The position numbers and the translations under genes were made by a program. 64,000 bases of DNA from assembly GCF_004145405.1 (NCBI RefSeq), contig NZ_SELQ01000001.1:744001-808000 (forward strand). The letters run 5' to 3'. This stretch comes from Salipiger sp. IMCC34102 (GTDB taxonomy: Bacteria; Pseudomonadota; Alphaproteobacteria; Rhodobacterales; Rhodobacteraceae). Of the stretch, positions 41,994 through 47,341 are shown in pieces (the stretch's first letter is position 1; each line of letters begins with the position of its first letter). The notes beneath the pieces are model-generated. The model saw only the letters and a program-made list of their open reading frames with translations. It was not told where the DNA came from and ran no database searches.

Positions 41994-42058
41994 CCCGTCC
42001 CGGACTTGATCCGGGCCCCGCGCGAATGAGGGCGGCCCCAAATCAAGTCCGGGGCGGG
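41994..42058. repeat. Large extragenic inverted repeat between preT and preA
   Basis: CCCGTCCCGGACTTGAT (41994-42010) pairs with ATCAAGTCCGGGGCGGG (42042-42058) over 17 positions with one G-U, and GGGCC/GGCCC pair further inside. The left arm contains the self-complementary CCCGGACTTGATCCGGG (41999-42015), which recurs exactly at 45458-45474. It is a repeated extragenic palindrome unit in head-to-head orientation, 5 bases after the preT stop. Confidence 0.8.
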
Positions 42059-44142: not shown

Positions 44143-44160
44143 TTTTACCGCTTGGTCAAA
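44143..44160. promoter_or_regulatory. RutR operator upstream of the amidohydrolase operon
   Basis: TTTTACCGCTTGGTCAAA matches TTTGACCAnnTGGTCAAA at all but two fixed positions. It lies 21 bases before ATG 44182 and within the rutR/amidohydrolase divergent region. TTGACT at 44112-44117 is a possible -35 for the rightward promoter, with a weak TAGCGT -10. The site could serve repression of both genes. Confidence 0.75.
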
Positions 44161-44181
44161 TCGAGAGTGACAGGAGCCTTC

Positions 44182-45435
44182 ATGCCAGACGCCCCCGGCC
44201 AGAACATGCAGATCGACGGCGACCGCCTGTGGGACAGCCTGATGGAGATGGCCCGGATCGGCCCCGGCGTGGCGGGCGGCAACAACCGGCAGACCCTGAC
44301 CGACGAGGATGCCGAAGGCCGGGCGCTGTTCCAGTCATGGTGCGAGGACGCGGGCTGCGAGATGGGCCTCGACTCGCTTGGAAACATGTTCGCCCGCCGC
44401 GAGGGGACCGCTCCCGACGCGCTGCCGGTCTACGTGGGCAGCCACCTCGACACGCAGCCCACGGGGGGCAAGTACGACGGGGTCCTGGGCGTGCTTGCGG
44501 GGCTGGAGGTCATCCGGACCCTCAACGACCTTGGCGTGAAGACCAAACATCCCATCGTCGCGACCAACTGGACCAACGAGGAGGGCACTCGCTTCGCCCC
44601 CGCGATGCTGTCCTCCGGCGTCTTCGCAGGCGTTCACGACCAGGACTGGGCCGAGGACCGCACCGACGCCAAGGGCCTGCGCTTCGGCGACGAGCTCGAC
44701 CGGATCGGCTGGCGCGGGGAAGAACCCGTGGGGCAGCGCAAGATGCACGCCTTCTTCGAGCTGCACATCGAACAGGGCCCGATCCTCGAGGCCGAGGACA
44801 AACAGATCGGCGTCGTCACCCACGGGCAGGGCCTGTCCTGGACGCAGGTGACGATCACCGGCAAGGATGCGCACACCGGCTCGACCCCGATGCCGATGCG
44901 CAAGAACGCAGGGCTCGGCATGGCCCGCGTGCTGGAGGCGGTCGACCGGATCGCCTGGTCGCACAAGCCCGACGCCGTTGGCGCCGCGGGCCACATCGAC
45001 GTCTATCCCAACAGCCGCAACGTGATTCCCGGCCGCGTGGTCTTCACCGTCGATTTCCGCTCACCGGACCTGTCCGTCATCGAGGACATGGAACGCCGCC
45101 TGCGCGAGGAGGGCATCGAGATCTGCCGCGAGATGGGCCTCGGCATCGAGTTCGAAAAGGTCGGCGGTTTCGACCCCGTTGAGTTCGACGCCACGCTGGT
45201 CGGCTCTGTCCGCAACGCCGCCGAACGCCTGGGCTATACCCACCGCGACATCGTCTCCGGCGCGGGCCACGACGCCTGCTGGATCAACCGCGTCGCCCCC
45301 GCGGCGATGATCATGTGCCCCTGCGTCGACGGGTTGTCCCATAACGAGGCCGAGGAGATCACCAAGGACTGGGCCAAGGCCGGCGCCGATGTGCTGCTGC
45401 ATGCGGTGGTCGAGACGGCGGGGGTGGAGGGGTGA
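44182..45435 (+). CDS. N-carbamoyl-beta-alanine amidohydrolase (beta-ureidopropionase type)
   Basis: A 417-residue M20-family zinc hydrolase of the hydantoinase/carbamoylase group. Metal-site motifs are YVGSHLDTQPTGGKYDGVLG, TNWTNEEGTRFAPAM and ELHIEQGPILE; a dimerisation domain around residues 220-340 follows, with C-terminal SGAGHDACWINRVAPAAMI. It would hydrolyse N-carbamoyl-beta-alanine to beta-alanine, CO2 and ammonia, the last reductive step of uracil breakdown. CAGGAG precedes ATG 44182. L-carbamoylase or allantoate specificity cannot be excluded by motifs alone. Confidence 0.88.
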   Translation: MPDAPGQNMQIDGDRLWDSLMEMARIGPGVAGGNNRQTLTDEDAEGRALFQSWCEDAGCEMGLDSLGNMFARREGTAPDALPVYVGSHLDTQPTGGKYDGVLGVLAGLEVIRTLNDLGVKTKHPIVATNWTNEEGTRFAPAMLSSGVFAGVHDQDWAEDRTDAKGLRFGDELDRIGWRGEEPVGQRKMHAFFELHIEQGPILEAEDKQIGVVTHGQGLSWTQVTITGKDAHTGSTPMPMRKNAGLGMARVLEAVDRIAWSHKPDAVGAAGHIDVYPNSRNVIPGRVVFTVDFRSPDLSVIEDMERRLREEGIEICREMGLGIEFEKVGGFDPVEFDATLVGSVRNAAERLGYTHRDIVSGAGHDACWINRVAPAAMIMCPCVDGLSHNEAEEITKDWAKAGADVLLHAVVETAGVEG

Positions 45436-45456
45436 CGCGTCTCAAAGCCAATCCCG

Positions 45457-45475
45457 CCCCGGACTTGATCCGGGG
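45457..45475. repeat. Extragenic palindrome left of the GIY-YIG gene
   Basis: CCCCGGACTTGATCCGGGG forms a 7-bp stem with loop CTTGA. Its central 17 bases are identical to 41999-42015. It follows the amidohydrolase stop by 21 bases and lies 65 bases before the GIY-YIG start. Confidence 0.8.
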
Positions 45476-45540
45476 CCTCGTGCCTCCGGGGGCAAAGGTT
45501 TGTAAACGATGCATTAGCGCGTCCGTCACATACCGATTTC

Positions 45541-45825
45541 ATGGCGCACACAGTCTATATCCTGGCCTCTCGCCCACATGGCGCGATCTACATCGGACAC
45601 ACAACCAACCTTTCGTGGCGATTGAAGCATCATCGCGCAGGGCTCTGCGGTCACACCGCTCGCTACGCCATTCACATACTCGTCTGGTTCGAGAACCACG
45701 ACAACTTCGAGGCTTCGTTGCTGCGCGAACGTCGCATCAAGCGGTGGCGGCGCGCATGGAAAGACCAGTTGATAACAGACGCCAACCCCGACTGGCGGGA
45801 TCTGACATATCGTTTATCACCCTGA
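45541..45825 (+). CDS. Small GIY-YIG nuclease-domain protein
   Basis: A 94-residue protein consisting only of a GIY-YIG domain of the COG2827 type. VYILASRPHGAIYIGHT carries the two halves of the motif, NLSWRLKHHRAG the catalytic-position arginine, and SLLRERRIKRWRRAWK the metal-binding glutamate. Base composition is visibly less GC-rich than its neighbours. It sits between two palindromic repeats (45457-45475 and 45834-45854) and splits the amidohydrolase and dihydropyrimidinase genes, which suggests insertion as a unit. Its biological role is unknown; it is too small for a homing endonuclease with a separate binding domain. Confidence 0.9.
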   Translation: MAHTVYILASRPHGAIYIGHTTNLSWRLKHHRAGLCGHTARYAIHILVWFENHDNFEASLLRERRIKRWRRAWKDQLITDANPDWRDLTYRLSP

Positions 45826-45854
45826 CCCGCGGGGTCCCGGCGCAAGGCCGGGAC
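45826..45854. repeat. Extragenic palindromes right of the GIY-YIG gene
   Basis: CCCGCGGG (45826-45833) directly abuts the GIY-YIG stop codon. It is followed by GTCCCGGC (45834-45841) and GCCGGGAC (45847-45854), an 8-bp stem with loop GCAAG. It belongs to the same general class of CCGG-rich extragenic palindromes as the left element but has a different loop. Confidence 0.75.
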
Positions 45855-45886
45855 GGGGTGGGCAAGGCCCCAAAGCGGAGACTTCC

Positions 45887-47341
45887 ATGACCACCGTCAT
45901 CAAGAACGGCACCATCGTCACCCATGACCTGACCTACGCCGCCGACGTCCTGATCGACGGCGGCAAGATCGTCGAGATCGGGCCGGATCTGAAGGGCGAC
46001 ACCCAGCTCGACGCGACCGGCTGCTACGTCATGCCGGGTGGGATCGATCCTCATACGCATCTGGAAATGCCCTTCATGGGCACCTTCTCGACCGACGATT
46101 TCGCCTCGGGCACGCGGGCGGCGCTGGCGGGGGGGACCACGATGGTGGTGGACTTCGCGCTGCCACAGCCGGGGCAGGGGCTTCTGGATGCTTTGCAGCA
46201 ATGGGACAACAAGTCCCGGCAGGCGGCCTGCGACTATTCCTTCCACATGGCCGTGACCTGGTGGGGAGAGCAGGTCTTCGACGACATGAAGGCCGTCACG
46301 CTGGACCGCGGCATCAACACCTTCAAGCACTTCATGGCCTACAAGGGCGCGCTGATGGTGCAGGACGACGAGATGTTCGCCTCGTTCCAGCGCCTGTCGG
46401 AACTGGGGGCCATCGCCATGGTGCACGCCGAGAACGGCGACGTGGTGGCCGACCTCTCCGCCAAGCTGCTGGCCGAGGGCAACACCGGGCCCGAGGCGCA
46501 TGCCTACTCCCGCCCGCCGCAGGTCGAGGGCGAGGCGACCAACCGCGCGATCATGATCGCCGACATGGCGGGTGTGCCGCTTTACGTCGTGCACGTCTCC
46601 TGCGAGGACAGCCACGAGGCGATCCGCCGCGCGCGCCAGCAGGGCAAGCGCGTCTGGGGCGAGCCCTTGATCCAGCACCTGACGCTCGACGAAAGCGAGT
46701 ATTTCAACACCGACTGGGACCACGCCGCCCGCCGCGTGATGAGCCCGCCCTTCCGAAACAAGAAGCACCAGGACAGCCTCTGGGCCGGCCTGCAATCGGG
46801 CTCTCTTTCGGTCGTGGCGACGGATCACTGCGCCTTCACCACCGAACAGAAGCGCTTCGGTGTCGGCGACTTCACCAAGATCCCCAACGGCACCGGCGGG
46901 CTGGAGGACCGGATGCCGATGCTCTGGACCTACGGCGTAGGCACGGGGCGGCTGACGCCGAACGAGTTCGTGGCCATCACCTCGACCAACATCGCCAAGA
47001 TCCTGAACTGCTACCCCCGCAAGGGCGCCGTTGCCGTGGGCGCGGATGCGGATCTGGTGGTCTGGGACCCTGAGAAATCCAAGACCATCGCCGCCGACAA
47101 GCAGGTCAGCGCCATCGACTACAACGTCTTCGAGGGCAAGGAGGTCAAGGGCCTGCCGCGCTTCACCCTCACCCGAGGCCACGTCGCGGTGCACGACGGA
47201 GACCTGCGCACGCAGGAAGGCCACGGGGAATTCGTCAAACGTGCGCCCAAGGGGCCGGTGAACCAGGCGCTGTCGTCGTGGAAAGCCCTCACCGCGCCGC
47301 GCCCCGTGGAGCGATCCGGTATTCCGGCGAGCGGGGTCTGA
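45887..47341 (+). CDS. Dihydropyrimidinase (D-hydantoinase)
   Basis: A 484-residue amidohydrolase. Metal ligands are H56 and H58 in IDPHTHLE, the carboxylated lysine K153 in HFMAYKG, H180 in MVHAENG, H236 in VVHVSC and D313 in VATDHCAF. It opens the ring of dihydrouracil and dihydrothymine to N-carbamoyl-beta-amino acids, between the PreTA and amidohydrolase steps. GCGGAG precedes ATG 45887. The tight spacing to the ABC genes (7 bases) puts uptake and degradation on one transcript. Confidence 0.94.
   Translation: MTTVIKNGTIVTHDLTYAADVLIDGGKIVEIGPDLKGDTQLDATGCYVMPGGIDPHTHLEMPFMGTFSTDDFASGTRAALAGGTTMVVDFALPQPGQGLLDALQQWDNKSRQAACDYSFHMAVTWWGEQVFDDMKAVTLDRGINTFKHFMAYKGALMVQDDEMFASFQRLSELGAIAMVHAENGDVVADLSAKLLAEGNTGPEAHAYSRPPQVEGEATNRAIMIADMAGVPLYVVHVSCEDSHEAIRRARQQGKRVWGEPLIQHLTLDESEYFNTDWDHAARRVMSPPFRNKKHQDSLWAGLQSGSLSVVATDHCAFTTEQKRFGVGDFTKIPNGTGGLEDRMPMLWTYGVGTGRLTPNEFVAITSTNIAKILNCYPRKGAVAVGADADLVVWDPEKSKTIAADKQVSAIDYNVFEGKEVKGLPRFTLTRGHVAVHDGDLRTQEGHGEFVKRAPKGPVNQALSSWKALTAPRPVERSGIPASGV

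Follow-up and report, generated by a model that had tools for sequence, protein, structure and literature searches.

A 2025 Nature Communications paper reportedly describes small GIY-YIG nucleases, named Ssn and with many homologues, which in Neisseria cleave DNA site-specifically, at repeated sequences and only when it is single-stranded. The Ssn enzymes are reported to be stand-alone, single-domain proteins accompanied by a repeated genomic target, and the nuclease of our locus resembles them in both respects, the second being seen here as association and type matching and not as recognition. Our nuclease probably stands near these single-strand enzymes. We know of no mention in the Ssn work of the hyuC–hydA site described below or of a link to CGTC REPs. 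If the protein is an Ssn, it would be a new member of that family, tied to CGTC REPs and resident at a fixed site; otherwise it would represent a new variant of a REP system.

Among the repeat systems, REPINs are non-autonomous elements duplicated by RAYT, which is present in single copy and vertically inherited, and they are described as commoner in the E. coli genomes that possess RAYT (PMC8049555). The CGTC REPs have a stem of 8–9 and a loop of 4–5, form inverted dimers and are found mostly in Alphaproteobacteria, where they occur in all orders and apparently have no dedicated transposase (Di Nocera 2013, PMC3733652); none of six Rhodobacterales names that were sought occurs in its text. 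How these palindromes, widespread in Alphaproteobacteria, are spread was not settled by that survey, and a matching nuclease that lends itself to expression and assay makes the question directly testable. Our locus resembles REPIN–RAYT in its short palindromes in inverted pairs, its one dedicated gene and its repeats that are commoner where the gene is present, but the enzyme is a GIY-YIG protein and not an HUH/Y1 transposase. With the CGTC REPs it shares a stem of 8 and a loop of 5, and in other Alphaproteobacteria elements with a CGTC tag and a CCA tail flank relatives of our nuclease, whereas the copies next to our gene have neither the tag nor the tail. A literature search by title and beginning of the abstract, with coverage of few subscription journals, returned no link between a GIY-YIG nuclease and REPs.

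The reading that we favour, with a probability of about two in three, is that a resident GIY-YIG nuclease gene and matching hairpin palindromes form a two-part repeat system working like REPIN–RAYT. The palindromes are dispersed as singles and inverted pairs, and their type is matched to the nuclease. The data suggest that such a nuclease supplies the partner so far lacking for a class of repeated DNA that is widespread.

Table 1. Features of the nuclease locus and of the neighbouring palindrome pair in the window (the whole 64-kb stretch of DNA analysed).
Feature	Position	Strand	Sequence or basis
First half of the REPIN-like pair; forward copy differing from the pattern at 1 position	41997..42017	+	pattern match
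Second half of the REPIN-like pair; reverse copy differing from the pattern at 2 positions	42035..42055	-	pattern match
Left neighbour, M20-family amidohydrolase, here named hyuC (ORF from first start codon)	44152..45435	+	Pfam
Left palindrome, forward copy; stem 8, loop CTTGA	45456..45476	+	GCCCCGGA-cttga-TCCGGGGC
Stand-alone GIY-YIG nuclease, 94 aa	45541..45825	+	Pfam GIY-YIG domain, alignment and model
Right palindrome, reverse copy; stem 8, loop 5; 8 bases after the stop codon	45834..45854	-	GTCCCGGC-gcaag-GCCGGGAC
Right neighbour, dihydropyrimidinase-kind amidohydrolase, here named hydA	45887..47341	+	Pfam

An earlier note on this DNA had described a short, nuclease-only gene of lowered GC content that is bracketed by palindromes and opens a 451-base gap in a pyrimidine operon. 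The gene, the bracketing hairpins (Table 1) and the gap (45436–45886) were all found as described, and the GC content of the gene is 57.2% against 66.3% for the window, which ranks it within the bottom 1.2% of 285-nt windows sampled in steps of 95 bases. By Pfam the neighbouring genes encode two proteins resembling subunits of dihydropyrimidine dehydrogenase, a regulator of the TetR family, one amidohydrolase of the M20 family and another amidohydrolase, and from these matches the operon would be of the pyrimidine-degradation kind. The note also needs revision on the palindromes. The right palindrome belongs to the same family as the left one: both match GYCCCGGNCYTGMNCCGGGRC, the right one on the opposite strand, so that the nuclease gene lies between inverted copies. 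The recurrence of the left palindrome 3.5 kb away, said to be exact, is so for a 17-base core (41998–42016), but the 19-mer has two mismatches there and occurs exactly only once in the genome. The copies at this second place form a pair (41997–42055) between two genes resembling dihydropyrimidine dehydrogenase subunits, and the whole segment 41990–42062 folds into a single long hairpin with an energy of -30.4 kcal/mol (z -5.28). Perfect stems of at least 8 with a loop of 3–8 number 13 in the 64 kb, both nuclease-flanking hairpins included. The flanking copies and the pair are all intergenic in the window; outside it, a check of extragenic position by ORFs has little resolving power, since ORFs cover 0.74–0.96 of this GC-rich DNA.

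One rival reading, improbable in our view, takes the hairpins for common transcription or RNA-stability signals in an operon where the nuclease gene is present by chance. They are indeed stable and lie between co-directional genes, but intrinsic terminators were rejected because neither hairpin is followed by a T run, and the single terminator-like match within 45300–46000 lies inside the nuclease gene on the other strand. The same palindromes are also present far from the gene, their type tracks the nuclease tree, and no palindrome of the window's kind was seen before hydA in the 37 nuclease-less genomes read there, a contig end in genome G116 having one. An Rfam scan of the window gave a single match, a tRNA.

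The GIY-YIG match of the nuclease in Pfam scores 42.3 bits (cut-off 22.6), the residues Y6, Y17, R27, E63 and N82, which we take to be those usual in GIY-YIG active sites, are present, and the motif KRWRRAWK does not vary across 30 aligned nuclease sequences. The median dN/dS in 15 close pairs is 0.074; the nuclease is under purifying selection. The predicted structure (pLDDT 94.5) points to a GIY-YIG fold, and its nearest solved structure is UPF0213 BH0048 (E 5.2e-4), the sole match with E below 0.001, followed by Slx1 and UvrC domains at E of at least 0.049. The UPF0213 proteins (1zg2, 1ywl) are similar in fold and size, but the sequence scores only 20.7 bits to 1zg2 and KRWRRAWK is absent from the aligned stretch of 1zg2. 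The protein does not fit a GIY-YIG homing (intron) endonuclease: TIGR01453 gives 16.8 bits against a cut-off of 56.05, and the Rfam scan of the window, with its lone tRNA, shows no intron setting.

The arrangement is not peculiar to the window. One scan contributed relatives in named genomes, namely the 80 best among 225 that were confirmed, and searches of the host family and the class gave 30 loci, the window among them, and 29 new ones among the matches listed; the resulting 139 loci with the window were reduced to 134 distinct ones by dropping five exact gene duplicates. Hairpins stand within 200 bp on both sides of the gene in 85 of the 134 loci, against 3 of 257 control positions displaced by 1 kb. 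At least one side has a hairpin within that distance in 114 loci, and 49 do not have them on both sides. The density of hairpins is 5.41 per kb near the gene (288 in 53,216 bp) against 0.82 per kb at a distance of 500–1500 bp (212 in 258,458 bp), and a smaller set of 81 loci agrees (3.81 against 0.86).

We distinguished the palindromes by simple rules, which labelled 98 of the 134 loci and left 36 that fit none. Type A, that of the window, has a YCCCGG stem and a loop of 5–7 nt and is found at 53 loci, 45 of them with hairpins on both sides; a tagged or CCCGC stem with a 4-nt loop occurs at 19, a tagged stem with a 5-nt loop at 16, and a GCAGC-like stem with a 3-nt loop at 10, nine of which are from Bradyrhizobium. 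The orientation of the pairs is imperfect: the outermost type-A pairs (n = 43) are forward–reverse in 22 cases, forward–forward in 5, reverse–forward in 2, reverse–reverse in 2 and unclear in 12. The nearest tagged hairpin is forward upstream of the gene in 19 of 28 cases and reverse downstream in 18 of 25. CGTC tags and CCA tails adjoin nuclease relatives, for example, at loci L079, L083, L238 and L246, and in several tagged copies (L079, L238 and L246 among them) CGTC or TGTC lies outside and CCA towards the gene. The repeats also occur in inverted pairs in pattern searches: among the places listed, 16 of 19 neighbours no more than 70 nt apart are forward–reverse, as are 7 of 12 neighbours within 100 nt in sampled stretches of three genomes.

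The type of palindrome follows the type of nuclease. On a quick protein tree (134 rows by 95 columns, 68 inner branches out of 131 being open), the four types require 10 changes over the 98 labelled rows, against a mean of 41.5 and a minimum of 36 in 200 shuffles. Within the host family only (15 loci with type A; the two tagged types with 4 and 2 loci) two changes are required, the mean of the shuffles being 5.75 and none of 500 being as low. Since the type tracks the nuclease tree even inside the host family, it goes with the nuclease and not with the host alone. In genomes G025 and G230 a CTCGGG type, located with a single pattern, occurs only beside the gene, bar one doubtful match in G025, and this pattern had dispersed copies in none of 80 genomes of the host family.

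In the host family, the Rhodobacteraceae, we compared repeat number with nuclease presence in 248 genomes of 247 genera. With the nuclease profile applied at E 1e-10 and up to 20 candidates scored per genome, 26 genomes had a match and 222 had none. Type-A copies, counted with at most one mismatch, numbered at least 10 in 19 of the genomes with the nuclease and in 13 of those without it (Fisher p = 1.2e-14), and copy number differed between the groups over all 248 genomes (Mann–Whitney p = 1.6e-11). The window genome has few copies, 14 against 3 for a control pattern, but G050 has 419 type-A places. Seven nuclease-bearing genomes have fewer than 10 copies. One of them, G217, has eight; G025, G231 and G054 have another palindrome type beside the nuclease gene, and G211 has an odd 13-bp stem there. 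Next to the nuclease genes of G085 and G120 we saw no palindrome of this sort.

The 13 repeat-rich genomes without the nuclease deserve separate attention. A search with the GIY-YIG family gave a few further matches in them, none like the small gene, and each has a match in a long frame that by its size is UvrC. The region before hydA was read in 10 of the 13 (all but G221, G181 and G076). The hyuC–hydA site is present and empty in eight (G010, G105, G179, G139, G118, G126, G108 and G101), whose repeats thus persist without the gene there, and in G159 the contig starts 284 bases before hydA. In G116, with 375 copies, the contig stops 51 bp before hydA and a type-A palindrome lies 46 bp before hydA (locus L207, end of contig C31), so the nuclease locus was probably lost in an assembly gap; such gaps can hide the nuclease.

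The association extends to the class. Among 387 alphaproteobacterial genomes, with up to 13 candidates scored in each, 147 have the nuclease gene, and at least 10 matches to the CGTC-REP pattern occur in 55 of these against 14 of the 240 others (p = 1e-14, kinship and genome size being uncontrolled). Thirteen weak profile matches (E worse than 1e-20) were counted as gene-bearing and none reaches 10 CGTC-REP copies. Counts of the 4-nt-loop pattern TNCCCGCNNNNGCGGGNA were not used as a test of association, because it also matches CRISPR-like arrays; it has 65 sites in G054, 26 in G085, 12 in G003 and 6 in G231, and 69 in G178 and 54 in G102, which have no nuclease match. The same pattern caught TCCCCGCGnnnGCGGGGA-like units about 61 nt apart in G001 (C2:421757–422751) and G039 (C12:460018–460826), which are probably CRISPR arrays.

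These data bear on the simplest alternative, that the gene merely sits in a REP-rich spot and has no functional link to the repeats. REPs are described as targets for insertion sequences (PMC1525189); nevertheless, the genome-wide association and the type matching speak against a chance neighbourhood, as does the empty site, where type-A palindromes were not seen, and we consider this explanation very improbable indeed. The link between nuclease and palindromes proposed in the earlier note is real and general: flanking hairpins, repeat counts and type matching all point the same way. Its comparison with REP elements and RAYT stands, since the repeats come in inverted pairs, the gene is mostly present once and at one site, and repeats are commoner where it is, and neither the repeat counts across genomes nor the empty site, compared across genera and in one same-genus genome, contradicts it. 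Taken as a whole, that interpretation is partly supported.

The chromosomal site is shared by most members of the host family. In 21 of the 26 gene-bearing genomes, the nuclease has hyuC on one side and hydA on the other, some of these genomes carrying as much as about 2.7 kb of extra DNA on one side, and because these genomes share both neighbours it is no recent arrival at the window site; the other five are G025, G231, G054, G085 and G120. In the 37 nuclease-less genomes read before hydA, hyuC is present in all but one and the gap between the two genes is mostly 15–523 bases, in five cases 753–1230. The genus of the window is represented by one further genome, G006, which lacks the nuclease; its hyuC–hydA gap measures 76 bases and it carries two type-A copies. 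We infer that the nuclease at hyuC–hydA is an old, selected resident and is not hopping. A GGGG-ccag-CCCC hairpin or its reverse recurs in the hyuC–hydA gap of six nuclease-less loci (L180, L184, L199, L204, L206 and L214).

Another rival is a selfish gene of the homing type, whose product would cleave palindromes at other places so that the gene is copied in there along with its own flanking pair. Other Alphaproteobacteria have several nuclease copies per genome, up to 10 in one, and the gene is often found there between inverted tagged palindromes; in G025 and G230 the palindrome type, judged by one pattern, is essentially confined to the vicinity of the gene. The subfamily of the window, however, adjoins hyuC or hydA in 45 of the 53 distinct type-A loci (both in 43, one in 2, and neither in 8), and we think this explanation unlikely. 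Genomes G351, G533 and G565 each contain between 6 and 10 nucleases of this family, against the single one here.

In the two-part system that we favour, the nuclease would recognise its own palindrome, most likely in hairpin form within single-stranded DNA of the lagging strand or of incoming DNA, and would cut one strand at it; repair or recombination at the cut might then copy, move or maintain the palindrome pairs. The outcome would parallel the action of RAYT on REPINs, by different chemistry, and cleavage and mobilisation of the palindromes by the nuclease are what we infer from their association and matched types. Several observations weigh against this reading: the repeats that persist at eight empty sites, the low copy number in the window genome, the loci that lack two-sided hairpins or a type label, the seven nuclease-bearing genomes with fewer than 10 copies, the imperfect pair orientation and the undispersed CTCGGG type. 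RAYT itself is unsupported as the mover: a scan with PF01797, the RAYT transposase, found none in the window genome, and it was found in 6 of the 51 genomes scanned and absent from 45.

Alternatively, the nuclease may act on incoming single-stranded DNA in uptake control or defence, the genomic palindromes being target marks, as is reported for the Ssn of Neisseria, that are spread otherwise. This is a tentative possibility, the less probable of the two but not exclusive of the main reading, with which it is compatible. A stand-alone GIY-YIG protein with matching genomic repeats would suit it, and the dRS3 repeats of Neisseria are CGTC-1 elements (PMC3733652), but the sole other mover sought, RAYT, is missing from 45 of the 51 genomes. 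A wider form of our own reading would make the stand-alone GIY-YIG nucleases the dedicated enzymes of the CGTC-class REPs and their untagged offshoots across the Alphaproteobacteria, that is, a second REP-mobilising system, of an origin independent of RAYT and domesticated at hyuC–hydA in the Roseobacter lineage; on this proposition we find the balance even. If it is true, two unrelated enzyme folds have arrived at one and the same relationship with short palindromic repeats. The natural pairs of enzyme and target type are on offer for studies of specificity.

At the left palindrome of the window, two open reading frames, 45432–45890 (+) and 45234–45551 (-), cross the repeat and encode PAPDLIRG and APDQVRG peptides, and such frames are a likely source of spurious gene calls.
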